DNA of 64,000 bases from assembly GCA_022393335.1 (NCBI GenBank), contig JAJEKB010021681.1, forward strand, positions 1,216,036 to 1,280,035, written 5' to 3'. Within the stretch, counting starts at the first letter, position 1. Every line of letters begins with the position of its first letter. The notes under the pieces are model-generated. The model worked only from the letters and a program-made list of their open reading frames with translations. It ran no database searches and was not told the DNA's origin. The position numbers were made by a program, and so were the translations under genes. Source of the stretch: Macrotrachela quadricornifera (lineage: Eukaryota > Rotifera > Eurotatoria > Philodinida > Philodinidae). Below are positions 24,467-57,390 of this stretch, piece by piece.

Positions 24467-26472
24467 TGTTGATTATCATACTGAAAATAAGTTCGTATAT
24501 AAAACATACCTTTCCTTCTATTGACAACATTCACTATTCCGTTTTTCAATGTTTTTTCGTTTCTACAGAAGAAAAAAAAAAGAACATGTAAGCTAGTTCG
24601 ATGATTTTTTTTCTTTTCATCATAAAACATACAAGAAAAGCAAAAATATATTTACCGATTTTTTTTTATTCTCTCTCATATATATATAGACACACATTGC
24701 ACGTGATTGTAAGAGAACATAATTCGTATTTTTTATCATTCAGCGTTAATAAAGTGATAAAAAAAAATAAGTTTTATCAAACAAATCTTTTTTGCAGTTA
24801 GTAATATAGATGTTAACAGATTTATAATAATAATTAAAACAAGTGAATTTATATTGATTGCTAGTCATAGATAAAGATATGTACCAATAAGATTTATGAT
24901 TGATGTATTTTAGTGTGATTTGGGATTTAACAAGACGAAGTAGAGGACAAATATTTACAAAAAGATATAAAAATTATTTTTTGAAAAATTGATGAATCAA
25001 AATAACGATAAGCTATAAATAATACGAAAAATGATAATATTGCAACATATATTTATCAATAGAAATTCATATCTGAAAATATGAATGAAAATTTATATTT
25101 TACATTTCACTTTGAAATGATATATATGAAAATAAATTTCATTTATTAATGATTTAATATGATATCGTATAAAATACTATATCTTCTTGTATCTATTTCA
25201 TTATTTCTTTCATAAAAGAATATTATAGAAATTATAAATAGATGTGCACCTTCTGATATATCAAACTAACAAATAAATAAAGAATATAAATAATAAAATC
25301 ATCATTCAGTTATCCTATATTAAATATTCTTTAAAAATAACTCATGATTTAATTAGAAAACCATATTACTAACTAGCATATTGTTGCTAATTGTTAGAAA
25401 AATATTCTATTGTAGTTAAGTGTTAATATTTGAAAATATCTTTTGATTGGTTGAAACTAATATCGAATAAAGATATTGATAAACATAACATTTACTCAAG
25501 AGTTATTTACGTTCAGTTTTCTCAATATAATAATTATGACTCAACAATGTATATTTGTGTTACTTTTTGGATAAATTTTACTATAAATTATATGGCGACT
25601 GAAGAAACCAATATACAAGACAGCGATAGTAGTAGCTCAATGAGTGGAGTGAGAGCTTTGGATAATGATTTTATCTGATTGTGACAAATTTTTTGGTCTT
25701 GCTTGTTTCAGTGAGAAAGTATCATGCGTTGCTGTAAATAATTCAACCAGTAGTCAGGTAGAGCAAACGACATATTGTGTAATTTTCTGCCTGACAAAAA
25801 AAAAATGGAAAAGAAAATGTTTTTCTATGCAGTTTCTTGTTAAAATATGTTGAGTCTGAGTGATAGTTGAATTTAAAAGTTGAATAGTTCGAACGACTTA
25901 ACGAGTTCTACACTACTGGATACATAATAATAAAAATAGAAAAATTGTAAAAAATATATCGATGCAAACAAGAAGAATACTATTTAGTTTATATACAATA
26001 ATATAAAATATAACGATTTTAGTATATCGCATACTAAATTTATTCGTTGAAAATTTTATTTTATTCAATTATATAATTTCAATATTTTCTTTTATTTTAG
26101 ATATTAATGTTGCATAAAACATTGTCCATTGTTTAAAATATAGATAATGAAAAAAATATCCATCTGCTAATTTTTAATATTAACAAAAAAATACAAATGG
26201 TACGTATAATAAATACTTGATTCACTTGTTCTACATTTATTATTCATTAAAAATAACTTATTATTTATTTAGAAAAATAGATTAATACCTTTAATATTGT
26301 CGCTAGTTGTCAGTAAAATATTGAAAAAACGAACATTTAATTGTAGACTAGTACCAACATACATTGAAAAGATGAGTGTTGGTTGGTTAAAACTATTATC
26401 GAATAACAGTGTGAATATAGATAAGAGTTACACAACCAGTCATTATCATTCTGTACTTTCGATAAGAACAAA
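24467..26472. other. Intergenic region with truncated duplicate of the acetyltransferase 5' end
   Basis: AT-rich spacer between two divergent genes. Its only recognised content is the duplicated block at about 25320-25560 (separate entry). The stretch 25590-25855 has a Ser/Asp-rich short frame (MATEETNIQDSDSSSSMSG) without known relatives. Confidence 0.45.
25320..25560 (+). pseudogene. Truncated, diverged copy of the 5' region of the adjacent acetyltransferase gene
   Basis: The order of short blocks matches the region 26235-26490 directly upstream of the acetyltransferase. Shared blocks include AAAAATAACT, ATTTAGAAAA-like, TATTGTTGCTAATTGTTAG versus TATTGTCGCTAGTTGTCAG, TTGGTTGAAACTA versus TTGGTTAAAACTA, ATCGAATAA, and a final ATGACTCAACAATG versus ATGACGCAACCAGT at the start codon. 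The copy ends just after the start codon equivalent. It is a tandem partial duplication about 930 bp upstream, now decayed, and may keep promoter-like sequence. Confidence 0.5.
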
Positions 26473-27249
26473 ATGACGCAACCAGTAACACCAGTTCCAA
26501 TTATAACAACTTCTCTCGATGAAACACTTGGTAAGACTGTTCCAAATTGGACACCTCGTCTCCATCCTCTTGCTGATCCACAATATCACATACTTCAAGG
26601 TCAATATTGTCGACTTGAAGTACTCAATTCAAAAACAAGCGATGTCGTCATTCAGCAACTTTATGATGTATTTAAACCAACCGAAGAAACTCATTTTACG
26701 TATTTGATGTATGGTCCATTTAAAAGTGTAGATGAATTTAAAGAAGCAGTGAATATTAAAGAAAAACCCAGGAGTGATATCGTCTTTTATACAATCTTTG
26801 TTAATAATGTACCAGTAGGATTTCTTAGTTATTTAAGAATTAATCTAGAACATGGTACAATTGAAATTGGAAATATTAATTTCAGTCAACATTTAGTTCG
26901 AACTCGACAAGCTACTGAAGCAATTTTTTTGCTAATGCAATTGGCATTTGATACGCTTGGCTATCGACGAGTAGAATGGAGCTGCAATTCCTTGAATATG
27001 AAATCACGACGAGCAGCAATAAGATTAGGTTTTCAATATGAAGGTACATGGTTAAAACAATATGTTGCTAAAGGTCGACAAAGGGATAATTGCTGGTTTA
27101 GCATTGTGGATGATGAATGGCCACTGGTCAAACAAGAAATACAACGTTGGCTAAATCCAAATAATTTTGATTCAAATGGACAACAATTAACTAAATTAAA
27201 TGCTGCTCAAGTTAATCCACGTCAACATAAATCTGCAGACATTAATTAG
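26473..27249 (+). CDS. GNAT N-acetyltransferase, RimJ/RimL-like
   Basis: Single exon, 258 residues, start ATG after a 5' leader. Residues about 45-225 form a GNAT fold of the RimJ/RimL subgroup, with a first strand at YCRLEVLN. The central strand GFLSYLRINLEHGTIEIG continues to NINFSQHLVRTRQATEAI, where acetyl-CoA pyrophosphate contacts are expected. Further conserved phrases are LGYRRVEWSCNSLNMKSRRA, RLGFQYEGTW and KGRQRDNCWFSI. These are characteristic of a group known from bacteria and fungi that transfers acetyl from acetyl-CoA to an amino group. The substrate (protein N-terminus, amino acid or small amine) is not determined. The C-terminal 30 residues are polar and non-conserved. No targeting signal is seen, so a cytosolic protein is likely. 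Lack of introns and the bacterial/fungal resemblance are consistent with horizontal transfer. A broken copy of its 5' end lies upstream at 25320-25560. Confidence 0.85.
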   Translation: MTQPVTPVPIITTSLDETLGKTVPNWTPRLHPLADPQYHILQGQYCRLEVLNSKTSDVVIQQLYDVFKPTEETHFTYLMYGPFKSVDEFKEAVNIKEKPRSDIVFYTIFVNNVPVGFLSYLRINLEHGTIEIGNINFSQHLVRTRQATEAIFLLMQLAFDTLGYRRVEWSCNSLNMKSRRAAIRLGFQYEGTWLKQYVAKGRQRDNCWFSIVDDEWPLVKQEIQRWLNPNNFDSNGQQLTKLNAAQVNPRQHKSADIN

Positions 27250-28204
27250 AAAATAGATACATTCATTTTGATTATATACTAGATTTTTGTAATTTTATTT
27301 TGAAAGCCGCAAATCTTATTTTCATAATTTGCCCTAATCAATTTCTAGAACAATAGCAATGATAAAAAAAAAATTATCTGATTATTATTTTCAAATACAT
27401 ATATGGTTAATTTGATAATCTATTCATTTTTTAGATATATATATATATATCTACTATGTATTTTTTATAAGCTTATCATGTCATTACTATTATTAGTGAA
27501 GGGATAATAATTCAAGTTAGTAAACTGCTGTAAAGAGCTGATCAGCCATTTCTTTCAGCTAAAGTGATATCAGAATTGGAATCAGAGAAAAAATATTCAA
27601 ATACGAAGATTATTTTAATTTAATAATAGCTAGAACAGAAAGTAACTGAGTTAATCTATATTCTAGCAAAAACTATTCCATAATTTTTTCTAGTATGATA
27701 ACACAATAGAATAGATACTTGCTCATCAATAGTTTAAATATCTAACTCTTGTACAACATTGAAGGATCATAAAGTATGCTGACGTAGAAATATAATTTCT
27801 CAATATGATTTCAACTATGCTAATCGAAGACAAAATCTGTGAATAGACTCTCATTCTATAGACATTACTGATTTTACTTGTGACAATATTTATACCTAAA
27901 TATTAAATATGATTATATAAAAACGATTCATAAAAAAAGAGTATCAGGTGCATACCCATATTATAAGAGCCAATCAAATTTTACATTGATTAAAATGAAA
28001 ATATTTCACTTTTTTCTCTTCGTATAAATAGATGGTAACTAAATTAGCTAATTATAATAAAATGTTGATGTATAGATCTTACATATGTTGTACTTTATAT
28101 TAAGATTCTTTCCAGTAAATGTATAACTAACTTCAGAAATTCTTTATCTGCAGCAGCAATTGGGTGAACACATGCCACTAACAGTATTGCATCTTTTTGA
28201 ACTA

Positions 28205-28823
28205 ACGAGGAAGGTTCACCAACTTAAAAATCGCTTTTGAGCTGATACTTCGCGCATAAGTAGACCCTAGTAAGACTAGTAAAAGCCTAAAATCATAAGC
28301 GCTAATAGGCCTTTCTTTCTGAGTTATAGTCGTTTTACTAAAATTTCAGCCTGTACATGGGTACATACTCAAAAATCGAGTGACCGCATTTCGAGCTGAA
28401 TTTTTGTCGATACGTAAGTCTAGCGATAGCTAGCAATCCCTAAAAATTTCAGTTCACCTGGATGCTTCCTTCACGAGATAATAAATTTTCAAAAAAACAG
28501 ATTTTCATGAATCATTGAAAAAATATGAGTACTTTTTGAAAATTTATTATCTCGTGAAGGAAGCATCCGGGTGAACTGAAATTTTTAGGGATTGCTAGCT
28601 ATCGCTAGACTTACGTATCGACAAAAATTCAGCTCGAAATGCGGTCACTCGATTTTTGAGTATGTACCCAGGTACAGACTGAAATTTTAGTAAAACGACT
28701 ATAACTCAGAAAGAAAGGCCTATTAGCGCTTATGATTTTAGGCTTTTACTAGTCTTACTAGGGTCTACTTATGCGCGAAGTATCAGCTCAAAAGCGATTT
28801 TTAAGTTGGTGAACCTTCCTCGT
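28205..28823. repeat. 619-bp near-perfect palindrome (foldback element)
   Basis: Left arm 28205-28495 and right arm 28533-28823 are each 291 bp and are inverse copies of one another around a 37-bp loop (28496-28532). Reading along the arms I found only about three mismatches, for example ATGGGTACA versus CTGGGTACA and CACCTGG versus CACCCGG. The outer ends are ACGAGGAAGGTTCACC and its inverse, and the inner ends are AAATTTTCAAAAA and its inverse. There is no coding frame. The structure is that of a foldback transposon or a recent inverted duplication. A transcript would form a very long hairpin and be a natural Dicer substrate. No target-site duplication was found immediately outside the arms. 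Confidence 0.9.
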
Positions 28824-29254
28824 AAGTTTTCATGAAACTTTTTTTAAAACCTCGTAAAGAGACTCCCGAAAATTTCATCTACATTTTACGTTTCTCATGC
28901 AAAATTTTATAGATAAAAACCAAGATATATATATAAATGTGTGAACTATATCTAAGCATTTTGTGTTGTACACACTACAGATGCATGATTGCTCTCTAGT
29001 CTTATAATCATATCATAAAAATATAATATTCTTGTTCCATTTTGAATTTGATCGGGTAGAAATGCACACTTATTAAATTATTGAGAATATAGGGAAAATT
29101 TAATAGGTTGATCGGCGGTGGCGGCTAAGCTGCTCGGCTCACACTTTTAAGCCGAATTTGCCATTTCATATTTTTAATTTCTAATACGTTTTATTAAAAA
29201 CACTGTATACACCACAAGATGTAGCGTGAAAAGCTCTTCAACTTGGAAGGCACA

Positions 29255-31893: not shown

Positions 31894-34800
31894 ATGTCTT
31901 CGTCAACCAAAAATGAATGTTATATATGTGAATCGCCTCTGCAAAGGGATGTGGAAACCGTGACAACTGAATGTGGTCATACATTTCATCGTTTATGTGC
32001 TCAAAGACGTATCAATGAGATACGCAAAAGCGATTGTAAGAGATGTGGAAAACAAGGAGCCTTAGCCGATGCACTTAAGAAACAGCTAACAACAAGAAAC
32101 ATTACATACCGGAATCAAAACTATGATCAATCTGTGAGCAAAGTATGTTTATTACAATTCATCTATATTGACAAATTTAGGATGCGCACTCATTTAGCAC
32201 CTTCTGCAACACTTTGAGAGCACTAGATCATAAATACAGAAGACTAAGCTATTTCTTGAATGATTAGGCAAACGCACAAGTTATTGATCTATGTTTTCTG
32301 TCACAGAAAGGAAAAAATACCCAACTAGTAGAAATTTGTCAAAAAATGTGGGCTTTAAAAAAATAGTTAGAGTGAAAACTCTTCGGCTTGCCTGTTAAAG
32401 AAGTTGTGACTTTTCTTCTAGGTAGTGAAATTTTTTTTTGCAAGCTTGCTGTAAATTCGATTTATAGAATAAAAAACAGATGAATCTGCTTTATTAATAA
32501 AAGACTATTACTTCTGCTTTTTCTGTATCAATTCATAAGTGCTTTATTTATCTGTTAGATGAATTATTAAGAAAGACAAATATTTGAACATATTTAATGT
32601 ATTACTAATGATGTGAAACAAAATGCATTTCAGTCATAGTACGAAACACATTGAGTATATTCAATAAAATAGTAGCATTCATTTTATACAATTAGAAAGA
32701 AAAATCTATTTTTTCAGAGTTTATAAAAACAAAATAAATATATGTCATACACTGTTGCATACTTGTCCATGCAGTAATCATTACACAACATCGAATATGA
32801 TCTTATCTAAAAATCTATTATCGTTCACTCTTTTGAAAAAGTGTCACCCTTTCCTCCTTTTGAAATTCTAGAGCTATCGTTATTTTTTTTGAATCTATTA
32901 CTCCTACATGAATACAATTATTATTAGTCGGTAATCTTTATGCAAGTATCATATATTATTATTTCCGTCATTAGACATCTATTTCATTGAAGTAAAAATT
33001 ATTCTATATAGACTATTAAATGCACTAATTGTATAGCATGTCTAAAAGCTTTAGGGTAAACTAGTATAAAAAACAAACATAACAAGATTTTGACATGTAG
33101 AAAAAAAAATATTGAAAAGAAAATGTATTGTGCATTTGTTGCTAAAAGGATTATTACAATAGTTCAATTCTAATACCTACATGAACAGACTCCTGATCTA
33201 ATTAATTTATGTTCTTTTCTAGTAAAATATATGCTTTTGATAGAGATTTTAATACAACTGCAGGAAAATGGGACAGTGAATGTATGGACAGACATAACGT
33301 TCTTTTAAAGAAGAGAATTGAGGAAGATGAGCTCATTTTTGTTTGCATCACTTCAAACTCTTCATAAAGATCAGATAGACATGTAGATCTAATGCCTATC
33401 AATTTAAAAAAGGTTCAGAATTAAATGATATTTTAGGATATAAAAAATCACAGGCCACATTTTTAACATCTCTCAGCGAAAGTTTTTGACTAAAAAATTT
33501 CATACTGATTTAATCATTTATCAAATTATACCAATGCTTTTAGAAAATTTCTGAGTCAAAGAGCAGAAGAAGTCAGCATATTGATCAATAGTGTCAAAGC
33601 TATATACGTTTTCTTGCAGTTTTCAAATGTTGTCTAACGCGCTAAAAGTAAAGGGAAAATGCCGTCCTACTCTTCTAGCATTTGTTGTGGGGCAGCTTCG
33701 GATATTCAGACGAATATATAATATGTAGTATAGGAAAAGAAAGGGAACAAGTGATGATAATCAGGATCTTAGAATGTTAATGGGAACTATATTAAGAGAG
33801 GTGTAGACACAGATCAATAAATATAGAATGGTAGATGAACCAGTCTTCTATCAGCTATCGAAGTCAGTCAAATTAAACAAGAAAGATTTTTTTAGTTGTG
33901 TCCTTCTAAAATGTACAAAGCGGATCAACTAATATATTCGCAAGTAGAAATAGGTACTAGGATTACATTTTTATGGATACGAGATTATAAGGTAGTCCTT
34001 TTCTAATATTTTAAAGATCAATTTAGAGCATGTACAATTAATCCAAAAAAAATCCTTATGGCATACAAATCGAATTAAAATATTAGAACTTTATGAACTT
34101 ACTATTATTTTAACTGAAACAGAATTAGTAACAGCTTTTGTAAGCGAAGTTACTAACCTCATTAGCCAACGAAAGTTAAAAACTCATTAGAGCACGACCT
34201 AGTGTTCAATCAACTTATTTAATTTCTCTCTTATTTAGACCAGATGTATTGTTAAATACTTTAATATCTGATTGAAAGAAAATAGGTACCCATAGATTTA
34301 GAAATTGCCTAAGATTATCACACCAGATGAACTAAAACCAGGCGTTTCGTAAGGTAATGAAACTAGACTTATCTCTCTTTCAGTTGCATACAGCAAATTT
34401 TCTGAAAAGTGCTTATTGACTGAGTTAGACTATGGACTGAAAGTAACTATCTGGTTTCTTCTGAACAATTAGAATTTAGACCTAATTATCCGTCCTCTCC
34501 ATAATGCTTTCGATCTATCAAACAGCCAAGAATAACTTAATCACTGATGTTTCTACGTTGCCCATTTATGTTGATTATCAGAAGTATTTGATCTTGTTTA
34601 GGATGCAGGATCTCTGGTCAAGCTGTGTAGATTGGAGATGCCATCTAGCCTATTAAAGCTGATTATATGTCAGCTAGATAACAATACAATGTGCACAAGC
34701 GATGACTAAAAGAAATATAATTGCTTTGGTGTCTATGCCGATCTCTTTCAAGGAAGTAGTTTAAGTTCTTATGTCTCTATCCCATGTAATAGTGATTTGA

Positions 34801-37800
34801 TATCTTATTTACAAACGCATTTAAACCACCTGTTCACAAATGATTTGCGTGTGTTCATTCGAGCTCGCATCAAAAAACCGTTCTTTTTCTTAGTTACGTA
34901 TATTTAGAAATTAAAAGTAGTAAAACATGTAACAGGATTGCAAACATTCAATAGACATAGGCAAGACAGTAATGCAAGTTTTTTATTCACGAATTAAAAA
35001 GAACTCAGTTATTATCTATATGTTAAGTAAAACGAGAGATGGTAAATTTCTTTGAACAACTTGCGTCTATCTAAACAAGTCAATCGTAGTTAAAGATCAC
35101 GATGATTAGATGCCTGGAGAACATCCAAGATTATCGTGTGCAAGCTGTAGTGACTGGGATTAAAACGACATTTATTTGTCTATACTTTTCCGACCTTGCT
35201 TAATTTTCCCCCTTTGTTCTCGTCCTTTCTAAAATTCTGCAAAAAACACTTAGAAAAAAATTTAGAGTAGTGATTCATCTAGTTCACCACACTCTATTCG
35301 TAAGTACGATGGATTTTTTTTCTTGTTTACTAACAAAGATTATTAGAAAATTACACCAAACAATGTATCTCGAGGCGATTGAAAAATAAGTATCTCTATG
35401 ATTGAGGCACTTATCTTCTTCTAGAGAACATATTCTTTTTGGAATAAATATTATAAGCAGACAAAACACAGTATAGTTATTTCGTTTCAATGAAAAAAAT
35501 TCAATGGATAATGGATAAACATCATTAATTGCCCATAGATTTGTACCTCACTTCAAGTATTATTATCTAGTAACTTGTTATATATATAGTTATAGGATAG
35601 ATACACATCCTCCTTCTTCTCAATCCCTTCTTAACTGTCGAACTTGTTTTTTTATATTGTATCTGCGTTTTGCACTTATTTATTGTCTTCTTTTTCATGT
35701 ATTTTATTGTTCCTTTCTTAACATTATTTTGCTACCTGCAAGTATTTCTGAGAGTAACAATCAAGGGGAGTGGATTTAAAAGAAAATAGTTCACTTGTAT
35801 ATGAGTAACTGTCAGTCTTTCAAAGAAAAAACTTTATCAAACAAAACAATGAAAAACTCTTGTGCAAATAATGAAGTTTTTTTTGCATTCTCTATTCTCA
35901 ATGAGATGATGGTATAAGCGCAAGAAAGGCCGATGAATGTAATTTTGTATCATTCTTTAGATTAATTTGTCAATGAAGACATTATTTTATGACGCAGACA
36001 ATGTAATATAGATTATCTGCAAAAATTTCAAATATCATTGAAGAGATACGATTGAATTTCACTTTTTGCAGATTCTTTTTATTTTTGAAATAATAAACGG
36101 AAAATCTATCCATGTTTTTCTCGAATTCATAGGAAAGAGAAGCAAACGATTCTGCTGCTGCAGCAAAATCGGCTCACGAGTATAGCAAACGCGATGATGC
36201 AATCGACACTTGGCAATGCGAACATTGTTCGATGAAGAATACGAACTCAGCGAGGAGGTGCGGATCTTGTGGTGAGTCACAGTATTCTGCATCGAGAACC
36301 TCGTATACAACGCATAAAGGAACACTCTCTGGAGATAGCTCTGATAAAAAATCACGATCGGATGAAGAAGACGAGGCGGAGGGTGCAACAAAATCGGCTC
36401 ATGAGTATAGCAAACGCGACGATGCAATCGACACTTGGCAATGCGAACATTGTTCGATGGAGAATGCGAAATCAGCGAGGAGGTGCGAATCTTGTGGTGA
36501 GTCACAATATTCTGCATCAAGAATCTTGCATGTAACGCATAAAAGAACATTCTATGAAGATAGTTATGATAAAAAATCACGATCGGATGAGGAAGATAAT
36601 TATTATCGTAACCATAATGAAGAAGAAGCAAGAGGTTAGTATAAATAATACATTTCTTTCTAATATAATCTAGCTTCTGACGCCATTTATAGTTCTGTTC
36701 TACAAATAGTAGCGTATATCAATAAAATATATAAAACAAAATTTTATAAGAGATTGAAGCTGTTTAGATGAACAAGACTGTTTTTATAAAAAAAAGTTGT
36801 GAGAATTGGCAGTTTTCCTGGAATCCTGTTTAACCTCGAGATCTACGGAACAAACGGGATTTTTTGGGGTTCAGGACTGCACCGAAGTACTCTAATTTGG
36901 TCAATAGTTTTAATGAAACAATGAAGAACATAACTAGAGATGTAAATGAATCCTCGATTAGGGAAGGACACTATCGCTTCCAAGCTGATGTTTTTTCATG
37001 ATTAGAGACAAATTCGAAACGTGCGACAGTGCTTCGTCTTGAGAAATTCCTCCGCCATAATAGTGCCTTTGGGTGTGGATAAATGATTCATTGAATTATA
37101 TGTAACTCGAATGTTTCTAAGTATGGTTCATGTTCACAAATCAGTTGCATAGGCCAGTGACTAGTGGGGAAACGTTCCTATCTATCAAATTTCTTTTGAA
37201 CCGATTGTGTACTCAAATGATAAGCCTCAGTACTTTATTGGCATGCTTTTCCAAGCTTCTATTGTCGAGTTATAGATCTTTACTTGATTATTTGACTTTA
37301 AGGATCATATTTTCTGAAAACCGGAATGATGAAGATTCCAATTGAAATTCTGTCCATAGATAGGCCTTTTAATCATCAAAAACCATCCAAAATTTGACCC
37401 AAAACAAACATATCCTCGTGGAGATATCAGCTTATCATAAAAACATTCCTATTTTTAAACTCAGCCCAAAACCAGTGTTTCTTTAAAATATGAATATATC
37501 GATAAGATGAGGTTCGTTTTAGCCCAAATTTTCCGAAGTTTATAGTAACTATAAGACATACCTACAAACAGAATTTCAGTTCGAATTTCGACCATTCAGT
37601 TTCTTAGAAAATACTATACCTCTCGACAAAAACCGAGTAAAAGGTATATAACTCATTAAGACCTACCATTTGCATGCATACTCAGTCCAAAAGTGATTTC
37701 ACAGCCAGGAATATCCAATCGTGGATGCAGATGGATGAATATGACTTGTGCTCAGGGATTCTTTTGATAATCGGATACATAGTGAGAGGGAACCGAAATG

Positions 37801-40800
37801 TTTAGCACGCGAACGTCCATTATGGAAAACCACATCATCAGAGCCTTAGTACGGGTGAGGGTGTAGCTATGGGTGCCAGTTGATGTAGGTGAGATAATAA
37901 ACGTACATGTGGGTGTGGACATCGTTGTGAGTGAAGTCATAGACAGGAATAAGGGTTTTATGCGGCTTCGGTGGTGATCTGAGTGTAAATCTGGGTGTGT
38001 ACGTGGACAAAAATGTGTTAGAAATACACATCACAGACCCATACATTGAGAAGGATGTCCAGTAGCTGTGCTGTTGTTCACACCAAGAGTCTCACGGTGT
38101 GTTTTTCGTGATGGACGTTCGCGTGCTAAAAATTCATCAACCCAATATATCAGCGAGAGAGAGAGAGAGCAATAGATCATGAATACGCCGCTCCATTATT
38201 GTGCTTTCACAAATATCGATGTATCTAGAATTTGGAATAATTGATGTTTTGAGCATGAACCACTTAATTGAGAAATTTTCAATCAAATTCTACAAAAGAA
38301 ATCGCTATTTTCTCAACGTAAACCCTAACGAGTAGGAAAATTGGAGTAAGGCAATAACACATGCATCCTAATTCTCTATCTATGGTAGTGTTGCATATTG
38401 CGTTTGCCTACAAATGACCAGTTCTGAATGAACGGACGTCTATATATCAAAAGATATGTAGGCTAAGTATGCTTCATTTGTGAAGTTTTATTCCGTTCTC
38501 TCTGCATATAAAATCTTATGGAGCCTTAGTTAAAATGTAGATAGAGAATGATTAAAACTGGAAGGATACAATCAGATATCTCGGTATATTTTTCTGTACC
38601 GAGATTCGTAATGCTTGGGTACTATTGACATGAACATATTCTATAATATCTGAAAAGTAGTACTTCGGTTCGAAAATCAATAGTTTGCTTACAGTTTCTC
38701 AGTCAAGTCCAGCCGTACATCATTGGCTTGAGTAGTGGATCTTCCGTTTCTCCCGATGTTAGAGTTATGACTATCAGTCGATGTGGAAAAAGTTTAAATA
38801 CAAATCTACCAACAGATTGTTCATCATTATTATAGTTGATAAAGCAAAACCACATGAGAATGACACTTTTAGAACATTTCCAAATCTTCAATTCGTCAAA
38901 TACATATGATCATAAGATCTCGTACTAGTCATTTTTTTTTATTGTTGCGTTCTGTTCACCGTATTATTTAGGGTGGATCAGACAATGCTCTATTTTTTAT
39001 GCTATTCGATCATACTTCATCTAATTGAATAAGAATTTTTTGATAGAAACAAGATAGAGAACTGCAGTTTTTGATCGTTTGAAAGATGATATGAAGATGC
39101 ATCGAATCATATATTATAGATTTTACTAATATTTATCTCTAAAGTATTTTTATTTAGTTTTGTAACTAGTAGAAAAATCTTTTACGCAGAAAAAAAGAAA
39201 AAGTACAAAAGTGAGCTTTTTCCATAGAAACTGCTAGAAAATCGTATTAGAGGCTGGACTATGATACATATTATTGATTTCAGTCTTCTGCAATTTGTGA
39301 ATCTTCGATTCATGTCTATTCCAAAAAAGAAGAGCCCTCGTCATTTTTTGAATAACTTTTCACAGGAACAAGCTAGAGAGCTACGGTTGTCATTATTGGA
39401 AAGACGAGATGAAGACACATCAAATCCGTATTGACAATATTTTTTAATAAGTTTTTTAAGAACCTTCTATCATGTTTATTGAAAATCAATGTACCATGTA
39501 GGATCGCTTTGATAGATTTTTGATTTTCAGGAGTGCATTAGGACCGTCAAGTGAATATCTATAGAATTACACATGGTTCAAGACATTAGCTTGAATCCCT
39601 CAGGAGTTATAGGCATTCTACTGAATACTGGAAGCCGATTTTTCTAAAAACCTCTGGTAAAAGAAGAACTTGTTTTACTTTTAGTTTGTTTTCCAAAAAA
39701 AACATTTTTTGTCGCCACTTTTAGAAAACTGATTAGAAAAGCTCGAGAAAATATATGATAAAAATCTGTAATATATGATTCGATGTGTCTTTAACTGCTC
39801 TTTTCAACGATGAAAACCGCAGCTCTCTAGCTCGTTCCTGTGAAAAGTTATTCAAAAAATGACTAGAGCTCTTATTTTTTGAAATGGACATTAGTGCATG
39901 ATCTTCTAATAGAGTCTGTCCGAAGGGTAGGAACAACCTATAAGTTTATAGTCAAGTCTGATCTCCTATAATCGCCACTAGCAGCTGCATTGTGTTTCAC
40001 ATTTTAATCCCGCAGGAATTGCGCCAACAACTTTTTTTGAAAACTTCGTGGAACTTCACACTCGAAGTCTTAGTTGTTTACCCTTCGATTTTTATAAAAA
40101 TAGAGAACAGTACTAGGTATTCAAACTAGTCTCAATTGATTCTGCTTTTTTGAACCGCCTGAGAAGAGTACATGTAGAAAGCATTCCGATGTTACACGAA
40201 CACTAACGAAAGGAAAAAAAACTATTGTATGTTTTAACTTGTATTTAAGTTTGAAATAAAGTAGGTCCATGATTGGTGAAAAAAAAAAGCAGAAAGGAAA
40301 CTTCTGGAAGAAATTTTTGATTGTTTTGGAGGGTTCTGCGCCTCTGCTTGTACCTATCGGATTCCACTGTGAGCTATTATAGGATGAGTTAATCGAATAA
40401 AACCAATGCCCAGTTAATGTCGCCCATGTTCCCTGATTCTCAACTAAGATATCGGAATATAAAATTTCTGATATATGGTGCTACATAAATTCACGATGAA
40501 TACTCAAAATTAAATAATGGCATATCAAGGAGTCATTGTCACTTTATTTTGCTGTCATCTTTCTGAAGTTTTATTCGCCATTGTTTTACCTAAAATTTCT
40601 AATTATTGATCGATTTTGCACTATAAACTTCTTACATACGACTGAGAATAATGTAATTAAAAGCCTAAGCAATAAATATGATTGTTGCTAATTATATAAG
40701 TAACAAATAAGTTTGTTTGAAGAAAATATCAATTTTTATCAGAATCTTGTGTACAAAATATATTTCTTGTAGGTGAGCTCCACCAGACTCACACAAGATT

Positions 40801-43800
40801 CACGGCAAGCAGAAATAATAATGATAAACAGCAACATAAGGATCAAGAAACAGAACAATATAACTCTCGTAGTTCTACTAATGTGCACAACGATTTCATA
40901 GGTTTTTCTACCACTGACAAGTACCCAAAGGAAAACCAGAAAACAAGAACAGATGACGATCATATTCAACCATCATCAACTTCTCCATTAACGTCACGCC
41001 TGGATGGTCCTTTATCAGACAGAATCACTCCTTCTGGTAATATGAGAAATTTACCTAAGCCGTATGACACAGAAGAAGTCACACAAAAAATCGAAGCACC
41101 AGTTGTCAGAGGAATACCAAGTACAGGCGAAAATTCATTGACAGCAACTCAAACAACATCACTTCAATTAAAGACAATTGTGTACATAACTAATCTGCCC
41201 ATAACCATTGGTGACAATACATTACTAGAACGCAACATTCGTCAACGAATTGAAAAAAGCTTAAATATAAAAATCGGTGACATAATATGCTATACAAAAT
41301 TAGGTGTTGGCTACCTTTATGTAGAAAATGATGAAATAAAAGATCGATTAATCAACGGTTTAGGAACACTTGCATTGGTTCCTACTGTTGGAAAACCTAT
41401 AATTTCATTTGTTGCCGAACTTGAACTGGTTTCATACATTGTGATTGAGATAGACGAAAAAAAGAAAAATGTTGTCTTACCGACAGCAGATGAAATGAAG
41501 CGTCGTTGCATGGAATTGTACAAATGTGAAAAGCTACCTCTTTGTGAAAAATTGAATTATCAATTTCCCAACATCTATAAGATTACATTTTCATCATTAA
41601 GTGAACTACTAAAAGTCATACACAACCAACAATTTTCGATTAATGATCAATTTGCTCGAATCTATTATTGTGCTGATTGTAGTTTCTTTGAAGATCTACC
41701 ACAATCAGTGACTGAAGATAAGTTAAGAGACACTATTCAACAAGAATTTCAAAAACCGACCATTTCTTCGTCATCTATCTGGATTCAATTAAACAAACGA
41801 ATGAAAAGTGCTTGTATTATTGTTACTGATACAGCACGACTTTGGTCAATAAGGAGTTACATAGTTATTGATGGTAAATTATTGTCAAAGAAGAATAATC
41901 TCACTTGTCGCCTTCGTATTTATCCTGTTCCTCAGTCGTTTGCTCTTCGCAAGATTACGAATCATGAAGTATTTGCTGATAAACTAGTTGGTTTTAAACA
42001 TCAAGGAGAAAATCTCATTGTTGAGTTAGCCGACAAAACAGTTTTTGATGAATATGTGACACGTAAAATGTTACGCGTCGACAATAATAATATTTTTCAT
42101 GTAGAACCTTACAATGTTCCAAACAATCCAGAAGCAAATGACATAGATGAAAATACGTGGTATGAAACAGAAATGCCACAATACAAACCTGATATAATGC
42201 AGTTTATTCTTACTCCTGAACATGAAATCTTTCGATATAAATGGAATTCAGAAAAATGGCTCCAGCAATTTCAACAAACAATTTTTCAAGATAATGATGG
42301 CAAATATAAACGCGATCGAAGAGACACACCAAGTGATCAAATTCGTCATCAATTAAGAGTAACAGTGATGTTGAATACACTTGCTATTGTACGCAAAAAG
42401 AAATATATGATTGATAATCAAGAAATTAGATTAAAAATAAACAATCAAATGAAAACAATTGTCTACGATCAACGATCAAAGTTGCAACGACAACAGAAGT
42501 TATCCTTCACAACTGCACCCTATTCTAATACACATATTGATGTTATAAACGGAGATTGTCTAGATGTCTATGAACGTCTCGTTAATGATGGCTACAATCC
42601 ACTTCTGCTAAATATGGCTAATGCAATTACTCCTGGTGGTGGATATCGAAAAGGTGCTGGAGCTCAAGAAGAAAATATTTTTCGCCGATCAGACTATTTT
42701 CGAAGTCTTGATGTTGATCTCGATCAATGGGTTTCACCACGAAGTGAACGATTTTATCGTTCATCCAATTGTCAACTCGATCCATTGTCTGATCATAATA
42801 ATATGTATCCAATGCACGATTTTGGAGCTATTTACACATCGGGTTTGACTGTTTTCCGTCAGTCTGAAGATACTGGCTATGCTTATATGACCAAACCACT
42901 TGAAAATGTCTGCTCATTAGCCATGGCTGCTTATCGAGATCCAAAATTGGAGGGAAACATGCTATTACCAAAATATACTGTAGGAACAAGAAAAAAGATT
43001 GAAAATATATTTGCTATTGCCTTTCATCATAAACATGATAGTCTTGTTCTTTCAGCTTTCGGTTGTGGAGCATTTAAAAATCCTCCAAATCATGTTGCAC
43101 AACTTTTCCGTTCGGTTATTGACCAGTATGCTGGTTTTTTTAAACTCATTACATTTGCTATTATTGATGATCATAATTCGGGTCATTATTTGAATCCAGA
43201 AGGTAATTTTAAACCATTTAAAGATATCTTGGATGGAATGGTAGTGTTTCCCTTATCACCATTGAATAGACCATGTACCATGTTTGGACCTTATCAATTA
43301 TTATCTGATGACTTGTTAGTAAGTGATGTTTGTATTTTTGACACCACACCATGTAAATGTGGAGCTCAATGTAAAGATATTTATGATCGTAAACATGCTC
43401 AAGAGTATTCTCATCCGACCTTTTGTCCACATGTAGCTATAAAAGGACGGTGTGAGTTAATAAAAGACTCTGTTCATATGAACTCATTCATTCATCGAAA
43501 TCGATGCCAGTATGGTGGTCAATGTCTACGAACTAAAAATGAAAAACATATGCAAGAATATGAACATCCATCATATTGTCCAGCTGGAAGTGATTGTCAA
43601 GATATGAAAGCAGAACATTTGAATGAATATCGTCATTTACCACAATGTCCAGATGGTCTTAAATGTATAGACTATCAAAACAATTTTCAAGCTCATTGTA
43701 AAGCTTTTCGTCATTGTACAATCGATTGTCCATATGGAAATTATTGTGCAAATTTACATGACAAACAACATTACGATAGGTTTGAACACCCCTTTCCTAC

Positions 43801-46800
43801 ACCATGTTCATGGACTCCATTTCATTGTAAATTATATATGGATTTAACAGAAATTGAGGATCATCATAACCTTTCACGTGAAATAGTAGAACATTGCCGT
43901 GACTTTGCTCATGTCTGTCGATTTGGTCGTAACTGTGTTGATAAAAGTAGTGAACATTTGAAAACATCTATTCATATTGCTCGAAATCTCTGTCCTGATG
44001 ATGACAAATGTAAAAAACTCAATAATGAAGATCATCTCAATTCATTCACACATCCTGAAATTCCCGATATAAGAGAATTATGTCAACATGCAGATGACTG
44101 TTATGAACGTGAAAAACTTAATCATATAATAAAATTTCGACATGCACCAAAGTTCGAACATAGTGGTATTTTACGCTATTTTAACTTCAATGAACATATT
44201 AATTTTGTTCAAAATCAAAAAGAGAGCATTGAACGTATTACTGCTTATATTCAAAAACAAAAATGGAAACCATTACCATCAGGAAATATTTCACCTGAAA
44301 TTTTGAATTGGATTCGTACTGTTCAACCTGTTCATCGATGCAATCCAATAATTTTTGAGTCAATTCTTCTTCATGGTCACGTTATGAGTCGACAGTATAT
44401 GAAAAATTTGAGAGATCCAAAATTTGTTGCGAACTCTGTTTTACAACATAGTCGCATACGGCGTATCAATGGTTTACAAGAAAAAATAGTTGCTCAGCAT
44501 GTCAAAGAATATGTCATTGCTGTGATTACAGAACAGTTTGAGAATAAGAAACTTTTTTCTTCAGCATCATCCAGTACAAAAACAAGCACAAGAGGATCAT
44601 CATTATCACAAGTAACTCGTAATGATACAGGATCCCACATGAAGGTTATTGAAACTCAAGAGGCATATTTATCATCTGTATTAGAAAAAAAAGATTTAGA
44701 AGCAATATATACCAAAGCTAGAAAAATTGCAGATGCTTCCATCAATCTTCATACTAATCCATCTGGTATTGATTTTGATACAGATACAGATGTAGGAACA
44801 GATAAGACAGTCAATAGTATTCTTGGACCACATTTAGGACATTATTATGGAGATGTGTTTATTGTTTTCAAACGTGAAATTCTACATCATCCAGATGCTA
44901 ATTTTACAATTCAATCAGCAACATCCTTTACAAATGGAAATACCTTCTATATGCGTCCATGGTTAGGTAATGATACAGGTTCACATAATGAAAGAGTCAA
45001 ACAATACCATCGTTCAAAGTTAAATGCTTCTATTCCTGGATATGATTATGCAGCTGCTCTTGAATTGATAGCTCTTACAAGTCATGATATGAAGGAAAAA
45101 ACAATGGATATTGATCTCTCTAATATTCTTAATCGTTGGATCAAAGTTGATTCCCATACAAATATTGAAGCCCATTTACCACAGCTTATTCCACTAAGTT
45201 ATATTGATCATATCTATATACCAAAAAACCTATTTGATGGTTTTAATGACGCTTCATATCGACTTATTAATGCAAAATTTAAACATAATATTAGCCTTAT
45301 AGGATACGATGGAGTGAGTAATCAACCATCTGAACCACGTGGCCCAATGCCTTCATCAAAATCTCGAGAAGCCTATCAAAATTTTGTTAATAAGGAACTG
45401 ATGACGCGACATACTCAATATATGAATCAACCATCATCACAATCTGTTCAAGGTGTTGCTATTACTATAGCACCAACTGACTTTACTGATCATTACGTAT
45501 TACCTCTCACCATATCACAAGCATATGAACAGTATTGTTTCGACAAGAAACATCCATCACCAGACCAAACAACATATATATATTGGCAGGTTAGTAGTGG
45601 CGATATGATATTAACACTATCGAATGAACCAATTGAAACAGATGAGAACCAGCCACAGCTTCGCTGTTTAACTTGTTACATTGCACCTAAGGCTATTCAA
45701 AGCTCCACATCTTACGATGAATATTACTCATATTTGGATAATAATCCACCATTTAAACATCATATTTTAAAAACAACAGGCAAATTCGCTGCTAAATCGA
45801 ATAGATTTCACATTGGTTGCAACACTGATGATTTCATGACATTTTGTCTTGAAATTCAACGTTCAACTGGTACAGTTAAACTTACACATGCTGGACCAAA
45901 TTCAATCTATAATCATGAAATCATTACTTACATATTCAACGAATCAGAACTTGATTTGACAAAATTAGATTTTGTTCATGTTAGTTCTGGTTCTCGTACA
46001 GTGTCCATTCAAAATCTAATTATTTGCTTTGAAAAACAAATCGCATTACATCCTACATGTGACAAAAATTTTAATAAAATACCATCTTCTTCAGAAATAT
46101 ATTCACTTCAAGACCAAGAAGAACGTGACGATAGTAATGAAACCGAAAAAACATCATCATCGATGTTACATGACTATGATGAAAAGAAATCTTTCGAACC
46201 CACGAATCAAATGAAGCTTTCAAAATTAAAACCTTGCCGTGATAATGTTAGTTGTCTTCTTCAGTACTCTTCACGGGATGCAGCAGATCATAATGCAAAA
46301 TATTCACATCCATGTCGCTTCTCTGAGATTTGTCGTAATAAAGAACCTCATTTGACACATGAACCTCATAAAGTTTCTATGTGTAAATATGATAAAAACT
46401 GTAAAGAACTAGGTAAACCATATCATCGAGCCGCATTTCGTCATACAGATTTACCCGATTTTCTTGTTCCATGTCGTGAACAAAATGCTTGCCGTGACCA
46501 CTCAAATAGACATCGAATCAAATATTCACATGGCGAACAAGTTTATCGAGCAGAAGCATCAGTAGTAAAAGGTAAAAATTTATTGATCTAAGAATTTTCG
46601 TTTGAAGAAAATTTTTTGTAGAAATAAAAGCAAGTCCGCCACCGCAAAATCAGCATAGTACTGATCGACGATCACCCTGTCAATGGGGCTCAAACTGTCC
46701 AAATATTGGTAGTTCTGAACATCGTGAAAGATATTATCATCCAAATTCTGATCAAAATAAAGGAATTGTACGACAAGAGAATGATCAGCGTCAAAATCCA

Positions 46801-46989
46801 TATATACATGGTGCCCAATATGACAATAACAGTAGTCAGTATCATGCAAAATACTCTCATCCTATAAATGAACGACAGGACAGGCAAATAAAGGATCAAC
46901 GTACACCATGCAAATATGGCCTTCAATGCCATTTGATTAATGAGGCACAACATCGAGAAAAATATATTCATTTGAACATACCAAAATAA
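31894..46989 (+). CDS. RING-H2 / RanBP2-ZnF / RRM-like / PARG macrodomain / PBZ-array protein, four exons, 2,305 residues
   Basis: Exons: 31894-32142, 36133-36634, 40773-46571, 46622-46989. Phases agree at every junction (0, 1, 1), donors are GTATGT, GTTAGT, GTAAAA, and total coding length is divisible by three. Domains: RING-H2 (C9, C12, C27, H29, H32, C35, C48, C51); two RanBP2 fingers (W110-C112-C115-C126-C129 and W185-C187-C190-C201-C204); RRM-like strands from about 384; and a microbial-type PARG macrodomain at about 760-1070 with G872-874, seven residues, then Q-E883-E884. About ten PBZ-like C-x4/5-C...H-x4/5-HP fingers follow (about 1110-1382), such as CQYGGQC...HMQEYEHP. Three unrecognised regions span about 1383-2010, and a second finger array runs from 2071 to the end. 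PARG cleaves poly(ADP-ribose), PBZ fingers bind it, and RING fingers recruit E2 enzymes, so a PAR-directed ubiquitin ligase/eraser in the DNA damage response is inferred. The join of exons 1 and 2 to the rest is less certain than exons 3-4. Confidence 0.8.
33223..34187 (+). pseudogene. Decayed coding sequence inside intron 1 of the PAR-related gene, unidentified
   Basis: A chain of plus-strand segments has clear protein-like composition but is broken by stops and frame changes. At 33224-33367 it reads KIYAFDRDFNTTAGKWDSEC up to TAA. Around 33540-33635 it reads AFRKFLSQRAEEVSILINSV. Further on come RPTLLAFVVGQLRIFRRIY and, near 33830-33920, MVDEPVFYQLSKSVKLNKKD. At about 34000-34187 an open frame of some 60 codons includes ILELYELTIILTETELVTAF and EVTNLISQRK. 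In DNA this AT-rich such segments are unlikely by chance. I cannot name the parent gene. It may be a transposon-encoded protein or unused exons of the host gene. Further fragments may reach 34800. Confidence 0.35.
36164..36613 (+). repeat. 225-bp tandem duplication inside exon 2 (RanBP2 finger unit)
   Basis: Two direct copies (about 36164-36388 and 36389-36613) of 225 bp, exactly 75 codons, each encode one RanBP2-type finger plus a Ser/Asp/Lys-rich linker ending DKKSRSDEED. The finger parts differ at only a few bases (for example CACGAG/CATGAG, GCGATGAT/GCGACGAT), while linkers differ more. The in-frame period explains the two-finger structure as a recent internal duplication. Confidence 0.85.
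37801..38130. mobile_element. Non-autonomous DNA transposon with terminal inverted repeats, in intron 2
   Basis: The left terminus TTTAGCACGCGAACGTCCAT is repeated exactly in inverse at the right end (38111-38130), and weaker similarity extends to about 33 bp. If the element proper begins at GCACGC, both ends are flanked by the dinucleotide TA, the target duplication of Tc1/mariner-type elements. The 260-bp core is G-rich on the plus strand (GGGTGAGGGTGTAG, TGTGGGTGTGG) and encodes nothing. It is a MITE-like element inserted in the second intron of the PAR-related gene. Confidence 0.7.
38155..38169. repeat. GA microsatellite
   Basis: A pure run of about seven GA dinucleotides within intron 2, 25 bp downstream of the TIR element. 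Confidence 0.8.
38980..39935. repeat. Three copies of a dispersed repeat in intron 2 (two direct, one inverted)
   Basis: Copies lie at about 38980-39140 (+), 39281-39440 (+) and 39740-39935 (-). The second and third share, in inverse, blocks such as TCATTTTTTGAATAACTTTT, CACAGGAAC, AGCTAGAGAGCT and GACACATC. The first shares AGAGAACTGCAGTTTTTGAT and CATCGAATCATATATTA with the third. The inverted pair gives a foldback layout around about 330 bp. The block TTTTTTGACT-like is also found in the inverted repeat at 29.5 kb. Confidence 0.65.
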
Positions 46990-54012: not shown

Positions 54013-54474
54013 CTAATGAATTAGTTTTATACATTTAAAGCAATTCAACCATCGTATAAATTTTGACCAGCCTAAACGTTTCTTTCGACAGTGAAATGGA
54101 TGTTGTTCAAAATCTTCTCGATATCCTTTCCATCCACATTTATCAATACAAGTAATTATTTGCTTTGGACATGAATAATAAATATGATCAGAAAAATTAC
54201 TTCGTTCAATATTTGTTTGTTGACATAGTGAACATTGAACTAATAAACGATTTAATTGATTAAGTACAATACGAGTAAGAACAGGCACAAATGTATATCC
54301 ATTTTCTCTACAAGATGGACATGATAATTGGTCCTTTCTCCATGTATCAATACAAGATTGACAAAAAGTTTGACCACATTTAATACAATTTACAGGTGAT
54401 TGATAAGGTTGTCTACAAATCATACATTTAAGTTCAATATCAATTTGATCTTCATTAACATAAGTGTATAACAT
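54013..54474 (-). CDS. RING finger / TRAF-type zinc finger protein
   Basis: Single exon, 153 residues. The N-terminal RING has C17, C20, C30/C33, C38, C41, C52 and C55 in C3HC4 spacing (CMICRQP, CxKCGQTFCQSC, CPSC). The histidine ligand expected in CGHTFC is glutamine here (CGQTFC, codon CAA), which could weaken the second zinc site unless another residue takes over. A second Cys/His cluster follows: CSLC at about residue 81, then H-x4-CP, CIDKCGW and H-x3-HC. It matches TRAF-type fingers in which a CGW phrase precedes a final H-x3-HC. TRAF-like RING proteins act as E3 ubiquitin ligases or adaptors in the cytoplasm. There is no MATH domain or coiled coil, so the protein is short for the family. 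Rotifers carry many such genes. The start ATG is preceded by AT-rich leader. Confidence 0.8.
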   Translation of the reverse strand: MLYTYVNEDQIDIELKCMICRQPYQSPVNCIKCGQTFCQSCIDTWRKDQLSCPSCRENGYTFVPVLTRIVLNQLNRLLVQCSLCQQTNIERSNFSDHIYYSCPKQIITCIDKCGWKGYREDFEQHPFHCRKKRLGWSKFIRWLNCFKCIKLIH

Positions 54475-56694
54475 ATAATTTTTTTTTCTTTTATTTTAAT
54501 ATATTGTTTGGATGGTTAAGATAATATGTTTTTTCGTATTATTGACAAAATGATATTAAATTGACAATAAAGATTAAGAAAACGTGATACTTTCTAGTGT
54601 TCCTTATCAAATGCACATGAGTTTTTTTTTTGCATTTATATCATAATACTTTTCTCTTTTCTACAGTTTAATGTCTGATTGCAACATATAATATCTAAAC
54701 AGTGAAGAAAGTGACTGATGATAGTCAGGAATATGCACTTAGTCATATATTTTTGCAATATTCATAGACGTTGTATTCATGTAGAAGTTAAAAGACAACA
54801 AAGTTTTTGGAGTTTTCATCTTATTCACCATATAAATAATGGTAATACACTGCAAAGAACAAGATATTAAAATTATAATTAGAATGATTCTTTTTTTATT
54901 CGAAAGTTTCTTTATTATTTGCTGATAGTACCTGCTATAATATATATGTAAAAAATATCTTATTTTGAGGAGAAATTAATTCGTTTTTTTAAATTAGTAA
55001 ATAGTAGCGATGTGAAGATTAATTATATCATGTTAATGTAAAATTAACAAATGACAACGACGAAAAAGCGAAATATGTAACAGATTATTGACATCTTGCT
55101 CTGTCATAAAAGCGACTCCTAAAATAATTTTTTTTATCTTACGCTACAGTCTATAGAATAACCTGATAAGGAATCCATTTATAAAAGAATGTTCGATCAA
55201 AAAATACTTTTTTATCTCTGTTTTCCCTCTCCTAAATCATTTGATTTCAATCAGTTTGTTTCCTTTTAGACCCACATGATGCAAAATAAGTTCTAGCAGT
55301 GTACTATTCTTCAATATGAAATAATATTTCTTTAACTTAGCATATTCTACAAAAACCTTGAAGGATGTACTTAGCTTGAAGTCATACATATTGAATCCTG
55401 TCAAATTCTATGAATTCTAACTTCTTTACTCAGAGAATGATGAAGTTCACCAATTTATTTTGACTTTATTTTTTCAACATTATAGTTTATAACTGACCGA
55501 AAATTCCTATGAAGTGAACATCAAAAATATTAGAAAAGTATTGAAGTATTCATGATGTATTCTGATACTATTGTAATAGATAAATCTTAAGTAAAACACT
55601 TATTTTACAATGATTTATATAGCCAACTATTTTGGTTTTGTTATACCAATGTAATAGTAATATATGCTAGACTTTTTGAGAGAGAAGAAGATAATATTAT
55701 ATAGATTTGTATCAAAGATAAGAAAACCCGAAGTTCTCTATGATGGTTATCGAGTATAACTACCGAAGAGATACACTAGAAAAAATGACACTTATAGTTA
55801 CTTCGAACCATAGGAAAAAGATTCTAAGATTAAAGAAGAACGAACATCACAAAAGATAATAGATTCCATTAAAGTTATCGATCTATTCTAATTTTAATAT
55901 TTTTCTAAACAGTAGTTACAACTGTGTCATCATCTGACCTCTATGAAGAGAATTATATGATTCATTGTATCATCCTCCATTCTGATGACGCCATATCATA
56001 TTCGAATTCGTTCGTTTCGTTTCTTGATGTTCATCATGTGAATTGATATATATTTCTCGAAGACAATCAAGTGATTTTATTAACAATCGTATCTTTATAC
56101 TTTTTATCAATAATATGATGTCTTCTTAAAATGAAAGACAAGTCACAACATCCAATCTATTTCTTTTTACAATGAATCGTCAAGCAAAGAGAAAAATTTT
56201 AAAGTTTATAGAGACGTACTAATTATATTTTGATGAAAATACTCTGTAATAAATATAAAATATGTTAGAATGTAAAAATATATCATCATTTTTTACATAT
56301 TGATGACATACTAGTCATACGATTTGTTTCACATGGAAGTGAAAAATAACTCAAGGCAATTGCGAAATAGCAGAAGTATGTAGTATTAAGTTTAAGCGTT
56401 CTTCCATTTTTTGATAAATATACTTTCCAAGGGATGGAGTCAACGAAAATAATCGTTGAATCTTTCATATGTCAGATAAGTACTCACTTAATGATTTTTT
56501 CAAGCAGAATACTTATTTTGTTTTTTTTTCTTTTCTATATGAAAAAAAATAATCAATCGAATTTGTCAATTTTTTTCTCTTTGACAACTACAATATATAT
56601 TGTAAGTTAGAATTAGGTGCATAAAATAAAAATATTTCATTAATAAATTAAGTTATTGAAAACTTACTTGATTTTTTTATTTTTTAGATAAATA
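54475..56694. other. Intergenic, nothing recognised
   Basis: AT-rich spacer between divergent genes. A short acceptor-like TTTTTTAG directly before 56689 suggests that the downstream gene has an intron in its 5' UTR. No other feature seen. Confidence 0.45.
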
Positions 56695-57390
56695 ATGACA
56701 AATAAACCTTTTCGAGTACGTCTCTATTTAATTCGTCATGCACAATCAAATGCCAATCTTGTTCCGACGATTATATGTGGTCAAAATATTCCATCTGCTT
56801 TAAGTCCTTTAGGAAATGACGAAGCTATTCTACTAGGCAAACGATTAAAATATCAAAATATTAAATTTGATTATTTTTTATGTTCAACTGCTATTCGTGC
56901 AAAACAAACAGCTGATATTGTTTTAAAAATAATGAATATTGATCAATCAAAATTAATAACATCAAGTGCACTTTTAGAACAATCTCAAGGTTTATGGGAA
57001 GGAATGAATCGTAATTCATGTTATACAGCTGAAATTTTACAACAAATGAATGAAATACATGTTGAATTTAGTGCTCCTAAGGGTGAATCATTACAAATGG
57101 TACAAAAACGTGCTATTGAATTTATGGAACCATATATTGAACAAGCAAAAAAACAAAGTATAGAGGAAGATAGAGAAATATCAATTGTAGTTTTTACACA
57201 TGGAAATTTGATAAGAGCTGTATTACAATATTATTTACAAAGTAATCCGAAGCATACGTGGCTTATTGTACAAAATAATACAGCAATCAATGAAATTTTA
57301 TTAAATCAATATGGAACATCTATAGTTAAAATGAATGATAGCGGTCATCTAGCATTTTTTATTCCAGAATCATCACAAAATCATAATTAG
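56695..57390 (+). CDS. Histidine phosphatase (phosphoglycerate mutase-like), single exon
   Basis: 231 residues. The catalytic core of the histidine phosphatase superfamily is intact. The RH pair R14-H15 occurs as LIRHAQSN (RHA rather than RHG), with H15 as phospho-acceptor. An arginine in STAIRAKQTA (about R68), the proton-donor region LLEQSQGLWEG (E95 or nearby) and the second histidine H169 in FTHGN complete the site. The length fits single-domain members of branch 1. It is closest in pattern to small-molecule or protein phosphatases such as the PGAM5/TFB2M-type or bacterial cobalamin/fructose-2,6-bisphosphatase-like group; substrate cannot be assigned. There is no signal or membrane segment, so it is probably cytosolic. 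An in-frame TAA lies just upstream of the ATG, supporting this start. An AATAAA at about 57425 may be the polyadenylation signal. Confidence 0.85.
   Translation: MTNKPFRVRLYLIRHAQSNANLVPTIICGQNIPSALSPLGNDEAILLGKRLKYQNIKFDYFLCSTAIRAKQTADIVLKIMNIDQSKLITSSALLEQSQGLWEGMNRNSCYTAEILQQMNEIHVEFSAPKGESLQMVQKRAIEFMEPYIEQAKKQSIEEDREISIVVFTHGNLIRAVLQYYLQSNPKHTWLIVQNNTAINEILLNQYGTSIVKMNDSGHLAFFIPESSQNHN

Follow-up and report, generated by a model that had tools for sequence, protein, structure and literature searches.

A bdelloid rotifer multigene family encoding very large proteins with a PARG-type macrodomain and PBZ-type fingers behind a RING in one chain

Introduction

In vertebrates, the writing, reading and erasing of ADP-ribose and its linkage to ubiquitin are spread over several proteins. 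CHFR and RNF146 are PAR-reading RING ligases; CHFR has one PBZ finger, and we know of no glycohydrolase in either protein. PARP14 has been described as a writer, reader and eraser with a macrodomain-1 that is unable to degrade PAR (PMC10470015), and its partners are PARP9 and the RING ligase DTX3L (PMC13224862). In bdelloids, the PARG of Adineta vaga is recorded as having several PBZ repeats, identified previously (Slade 2011, cited in PMC4245714); the same survey (Perina 2014) reports PARGs with extra domains in few species only. Seventeen PARP genes of A. vaga are switched on after radiation (PMC10809525). PARG is not named in the main text of that study, nor in the main texts of the further Adineta stress or repair studies consulted, which mention PARPs, or PBZ on ligase E/APLF.

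Here we describe a gene of Macrotrachela quadricornifera whose predicted product resembles these systems in part. It shares with CHFR and RNF146 a RING and a putative PAR-binding module; unlike CHFR, it has 14 CCHH fingers. The solved PARG chains of T. curvata and D. radiodurans have about 250-280 aa, whereas the rotifer domain lies within 2,305 aa. Like the vertebrate, interferon-induced PARP14/PARP9/DTX3L set, as far as the sources describe it, the rotifer protein appears to combine RRM-like modules with a RING, a probable ART-type domain and a macrodomain of predicted hydrolytic function. However, that set consists of three chains and the rotifer protein of one, fingers stand where the set has WWE, and the rotifer macrodomain is PARG-type, in contrast to the PARP14 macrodomain-1 described as unable to degrade PAR. 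The pieces scanned gave no PARP, KH or Deltex (DTC) Pfam matches, a search that distant forms could escape.

The closest published arrangement is that of A. vaga PARG, a bdelloid protein with the same combination of PARG and PBZ (PMC4245714), which is most likely a member of the family described below. Because that protein is in print, a reader and an eraser in one bdelloid protein are not new, and the novelty claimed in a preliminary description of this DNA was to that extent too broad. The RING, RanBP2, RRM-like, transferase-like and lectin-like parts go unmentioned in the portion of the A. vaga account available to us (PMC4245714). In the bdelloid and rotifer ADP-ribosylation literature consulted, which covers few subscription journals and is in part available as excerpts, we found no description of how large the family is, nor of its RING, its RRM-like modules or its transferase-like and lectin-like parts.

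Results

Gene structure and closest genome copy

The window is the whole stretch of DNA analysed, 64,000 nucleotides at C4860:1216036-1280035 of a 450-Mb assembly. Its translation showed four exons that join in frame to give 6,918 nt and 2,305 aa, with GT..AG at all three introns. Exon 1 (31894..32142; aa 1-83) encodes a RING-H2 finger (C3H2C3) at aa 9-51 (PF13639, E 1.9e-6); exon 2 (36133..36634; aa 84-250) encodes two RanBP2-type zinc ribbons; exon 3 (40773..46571; aa 251-2183) encodes the bulk of the protein; and exon 4 (46622..46989) encodes the end of the second CCHH array (PBZ, 15.5 bits) and the stop codon. These exons and all features given below are on the forward strand.

The closest genome copy, on C3979, has four exons of identical lengths with no gaps and with the splice sites kept. 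Its protein is 96.2% identical to that of the window gene, and its exon 1 is 95.6% identical in nucleotides with the splice donor kept. The C3979 protein seems one residue shorter because exon 4 ends in TAATAA and the stop was called before the last codon. The absence of an internal stop, the GT..AG introns and the same exons at C3979 bear out the four-exon, 2,305-aa model proposed in the preliminary description. For this one pair of copies, dN/dS was 0.28 overall. The values by region were: lectin-like domain, 0.06; PARG, 0.125; first finger array, 0.14; transferase-like region, 0.32; RRM-like region, 0.34; exon 2, 0.75.

RING and RanBP2 modules

The window RING scored 28.5 bits against zf-RING_2 (E 1.9e-6; Pfam cut-off 27.3). 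Its eight zinc ligands are all present, arranged as C3H2C3, and the hydrophobic residue preceding the second Cys is kept, in agreement with the initial RING-H2 call. The canonical E2-contact residues of a RING are the Pro of CPxC and a linchpin Arg after the last Cys. Neither was found in the window RING, which reads CKRCG with Gly at the linchpin position. The RINGs of relatives P0011, P0059, P0117 and P0119 have CPxCR. Thus, while E3 activity is plausible in the family, it is doubtful in the window copy. The C3979 RING has CYLC in place of CYIC, and the RING exons of the two copies differ by 10 replacement changes vs 1 silent change, a number too small to claim positive selection. Constraint on the RING of the window copy is not evident in this single comparison.

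Exon 2 contains a tandem duplication of 225 bp, with units at 36139-36363 and 36364-36588 that are 88% identical. The RanBP ribbon model matched two stretches (Pfam, E 1.8e-7). Both previously noted RanBP2 fingers are real, with the correction that they are the product of this duplication within one exon.

One chain or two genes

We considered whether the RING exon is a separate gene and rejected this, since single predicted chains of relatives hold RING, RanBP2 and PARG. At C4908 the RING lies closely upstream, and the two RanBP2 ribbons are in one open frame that continues into the RRM/PARG exon. One candidate intron there is 159 nt long; 425 of 471 stop-free splice paths retain both motifs, so more than one junction would fit. 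This layout places RING and large exon in one gene type, as far as sequence can settle it. A single chain in which a RING precedes a predicted eraser of PARG fold and fingers of PBZ type is well supported. The reader-eraser-ligase layout had been presented as that of a single novel protein; the single chain stands, but the layout is a family trait with many paralogs.

RRM-like region and PARG macrodomain

The structure model shows four tandem RRM-like modules at 41174..42109 (aa 385-696). An RRM-like region had been suggested from the letters alone; the model agrees with it, whereas sequence likeness is weak, the best RRM match having E 0.38. The family profile also matches Pumilio (E 0.005).

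A microbial-type PARG macrodomain follows at 42347..43231 (aa 776-1070), with the catalytic GGG-x7-QEE at 42635-42673 (aa 872-884), which in the window reads GGGYRKGAGAQEE. It matched PARG_cat_microb (PF10021; E 7.3e-23, 82.0 bits vs the Pfam cut-off of 23.5) and TIGR02452 (E 1.3e-29, 103.6 bits vs a cut-off of 50). Among solved structures, the sequence search recovered bacterial PARGs and, with a weak match, the APLF PBZ pair. GGGx7QEE is kept in 115 of the 120 relatives listed. The domain has the macrodomain fold of a microbial-type PARG. The profile matches, the intact motif and the fold confirm the macrodomain recognised at the outset, which may hydrolyse PAR.

CCHH finger arrays

The first array of CCHH (PBZ-type) fingers lies at 43352..44143 (aa 1111-1374; APLF 2kuo, E 0.002). 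The second CCHH array occupies 46235..46571 in exon 3 and ends in exon 4. A loose pattern found 14 fingers; in 1,000 shuffled versions of the arrays it found 0.24 on average and at most 4. Against PBZ (PF10283), exon 3 scored 22.1 bits, narrowly short of the Pfam cut-off of 22.7, and exon 4 scored 15.5 bits; relatives such as P0002 (30.1 bits) and P0072 (27.1 bits) exceed the cut-off. Of 24 family members scanned with Pfam, 19 had the PBZ model among their matches at E <= 10, with a best E of 3e-13.

The full PAR-binding consensus is given as [KR]xxCx[FY]GxxC..H...[FY].H (PMC4030884). With Trp allowed at the aromatic sites, 3 of the 14 fingers fit it, or 4 if the basic residue is waived; 11 deviate from the full form. 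The 109 relatives longer than 1,600 aa, drawn from the 120 listed, had on average 1.3 full-consensus fingers, or 2.5 without the basic residue, and 73 of them had at least one. With so few full-consensus fingers, most of the array is better described as having the shape of PBZ than as an established PAR binder. Accordingly, the two large PBZ-like arrays described earlier hold as CCHH fingers but in only 3 of 14 cases as full PBZ. We infer from the pattern that the arrays may bind PAR.

Transferase-like region and lectin-like domain

The structure model revealed two folded domains between the finger arrays. Both were omitted from the original domain list, whose RING, RanBP2, PARG and CCHH entries are retained. 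The second is a galectin/CBM66-like jelly-roll at 45449..46036 (aa 1810-2005). The first, at 44171..45301 (aa 1384-1760), probably has an ADP-ribosyltransferase-like fold, with likeness to SopF, a Salmonella ADP-ribosyltransferase effector with which we saw no other shared domain. No PARP was among the best structural matches listed.

Conservation was assessed over 151 sequences, namely the window and those fetched proteins whose match to the 391-residue piece extends over residues 30-365 or more, with partial ones excluded. The candidate residues are His1438/Arg1439 on the early strand PVHRC and Glu1716 (45167-45169), close to the start of a later strand. His1438 is kept in 137 of 151 sequences, with Tyr in 13 others; Arg1439 occurs in 144 and Cys1440 in 150. 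Glu1716 is invariant (151/151), as are Gly1602, His1623, Asp1625, Trp1647, Leu1719 and Pro1720. This set of invariant polar residues would suit an active site. The spacing of the PVHRC strand and the following helix (F, I-L, G) presumably resembles that of the first PARP motif. SopF uses an I-Y-E triad (PMC10333799), whereas the rotifer family has His at the candidate first-strand position in those 137 sequences. SopF is itself described as having no sequence homology to earlier ARTs (PMC10333799).

Sequence and fold searches with this region returned little. Pfam gave just one weak HIT-like match, on the consensus (E 0.16), and NCBIfam no family at E <= 10; no ART family was found in either at that threshold, with filters that drop most weak matches. 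No transferase was present among 25 of the 33 matching families, those listed for the 24 relatives scanned. SopF was absent among the best 50 Foldseek matches, and no transferase by name occurred among the best 50 of 464 matches in a viral fold library, several of which are unnamed. A phage search gave two matches at chance level.

A likeness to DUF3626 (PF12294) was first suspected by eye from a weak match in the viral library, at rank 37. This identity is not supported: hhalign gave a probability of 0.1% against a thin profile of three DUF3626-type genes, of which the two scanned were confirmed by Pfam. PF12294 had no match in the genome, where the control likewise matched nowhere.

Relatives and genome copies

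The exon 3 search found 146 proteins, of which 120 were listed. Among the matches listed, every relative that names an organism is from Rotaria, Adineta or Didymodactylos, and the same was true of the organism-naming matches for the C-terminal piece alone (74 proteins). These three genera are bdelloids, and the early guess of a bdelloid source fits. As far as the named relatives show, the predicted layout is restricted to bdelloids. Among the 120 listed relatives, the RING motif was present in 14, the RanBP2 ribbon in 33 and both in 11; the RING counts are probably lower bounds, since many sequences come from contig collections and may lack first exons. More than one RING occurs in P0044 (three) and P0072 (four), and the eight-ligand RING recurs across all three genera. 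The A. vaga members include I4U23_003738 and I4U23_015558.

A macrodomain query of the genome gave at least 48 matches, of which 25 span 370 or more of the 400 residues, the window gene being one of them. A search with the RING exon gave at least 35 matches. A RING exon lies upstream on the same strand at 9 of the 25 macrodomain places (C4860, C3979, C4649, C4286, C4908, C3801, C5453, C4559 and one of two on C3020); at the other 16 none was found at E <= 0.001, both match lists being lower bounds. C3801 and C4559 have five RINGs each, and on C3833 a RING precedes a partial macrodomain match. No RING was found in the 9.2-9.5 kb upstream at C4261 and C4683, and neither RING nor RanBP2 in the 9.6 kb upstream at C4675. 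RING exons also occur on C4449, C4423 and C4372, with no macrodomain match on the same contig among the matches listed. Inter-exon distances differ from copy to copy; the window gene, with introns of 4 kb, is among those with the longest.

Discussion

We propose, with a probability of about 0.6, that the window gene belongs to a bdelloid multigene family encoding a very large ADP-ribose signalling protein that works as follows. The fingers and RRM-like modules would anchor the protein at ADP-ribosylated targets, themselves probably bound to nucleic acid, where the PARG would trim or remove the polymer. The RING, one here and up to five in paralogs, would couple the site to ubiquitin, and the region at aa 1384-1760, probably an ART-type fold, could act as a writer or simply bind ADP-ribose or NAD. 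The whole would amount to the PARP14/PARP9/DTX3L set in a single chain, with a PARG-type eraser replacing the mono-ADP-ribosyl hydrolase. The reader-eraser core is well supported; the ubiquitin ligase part, predicted from motifs, is conditional. A stronger form, in which an active SopF-type writer, finger readers, PARG eraser and RING would complete the ADP-ribose cycle with a ubiquitin handle in one polypeptide, multiplied by bdelloids with RING (one to five) and finger number adjustable, is put forward tentatively and is rather unlikely.

The protein might instead be a PBZ-tethered PARG and nothing more, with the RING and RanBP2 exons optional or decaying and aa 1384-1760 structural rather than a transferase. 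The 16 near-complete places lacking a detected upstream RING exon, the upstream regions of C4261, C4683 and C4675, the excess of replacement changes in the RING exon and the lack of a strong sequence family for aa 1384-1760 all point that way. However, three genera share an eight-ligand RING that some members carry four- or fivefold in tandem, some RINGs retain both CPxC and linchpin Arg, and Glu1716 does not vary; we regard this limited role as improbable. For aa 1384-1760 specifically, the likeness to SopF may be a chance resemblance of a mixed helix/strand arrangement in a bdelloid-specific fold of unassigned type. This is a possibility of some weight but not the one we favour: the region is probably an ART fold, and its possible role as an ADP-ribose writer is a strong lead.

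An RNA-directed factor is another candidate. In that case RNA would be the ligand of most fingers, of the RanBP2 ribbons and of the RRM-like modules, and the PARG and transferase-like fold would act on ADP-ribosylated nucleic acid, for example in defence against viruses or transposons. The four modelled RRM-like modules, the poor fit of most fingers to the PBZ consensus and the numerous paralogs are consistent with such a role. PBZ fingers are reported to be structurally closest to ssRNA-binding C3H1 fingers (PMC4030884), and PARP14 and DTX3L, with their RRM and KH modules, have been linked to interferon responses (PMC13224862). Against this stands the listing of the PBZ model for most members scanned, with its low best E value, and we consider the RNA-directed role unlikely.

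We conclude that the layout is real and a property of the family. It unites a RING and RRM-like modules with a predicted eraser, a predicted reader and a probable transferase fold in a single polypeptide. A natural one-chain version, multiplied in animals that survive broken DNA, would make each step testable on one construct. The family would be a candidate counterpart to the radiation-induced bdelloid PARP genes. An active transferase-like domain would mean that an animal encodes a SopF-like fold.

A macrodomain tree, a midpoint-rooted drawing of 70 of 225 available sequences (hand-picked ones plus every third outside sequence), placed the long family and several short records in one clade (support 100/99). 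P0142, from a protist collection, adjoins the clade of the long family (support 99/95). A short PARG of Adineta ricciae, P0237, falls outside that clade, indicating that bdelloids have at least one other kind of PARG.

Finger duplication and RING amplification

Exon 2 of the gene contains an in-frame tandem duplication at 36139-36588, with a unit of 225 bp, by which the RanBP2 ribbon is doubled. The number of fingers looks like an adjustable feature across the gene's family. In the assembly that holds the window, contigs C3801, C4559 and C4372 carry five tandem RING copies in an open frame of ~340-360 aa. When this genome was searched with the macrodomain query, C4372 had no macrodomain match among the matches listed.

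A possibly truncated copy and a short relative

A copy with 95% identity was found at 632619-633818 of contig C4675 in the same assembly, with one TAG inside the match. Neither a RING nor a RanBP2 exon was found in the upstream stretch examined; this copy is possibly 5′-truncated. P0237, a short bdelloid protein of Adineta ricciae (392 aa), has a microbial-type PARG, which the macrodomain tree placed outside the clade of the long bdelloid family to which the gene belongs.

Repeats and neighbouring genes

Upstream of the gene, an inverted repeat at 28200-28828 (arms of 296 nt, complementarity 99%, spacer of 37 nt) resembles a foldback or MITE-type element. A second, weaker inverted repeat lies in intron 2 at 39301-39902 (arms of 155 nt, 78%), and the 4-kb length of this intron may be partly due to it. 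Two 300-nt copies, 77% identical and separated by 6.3 kb (13726-14025 and 20026-20325, both minus strand), sit within two reading frames that look GPCR-type; the frame at 13726-14025 had zero Pfam matches. On the minus strand at 54013-54495, the window encodes another protein with a RING, in which a TRAF-type finger is weakly matched. Three ordinary neighbours lie on the plus strand: a nucleotide pyrophosphatase-type protein (6647-7834), a GNAT acetyltransferase (26425-27249) and a histidine phosphatase (56692-57390).
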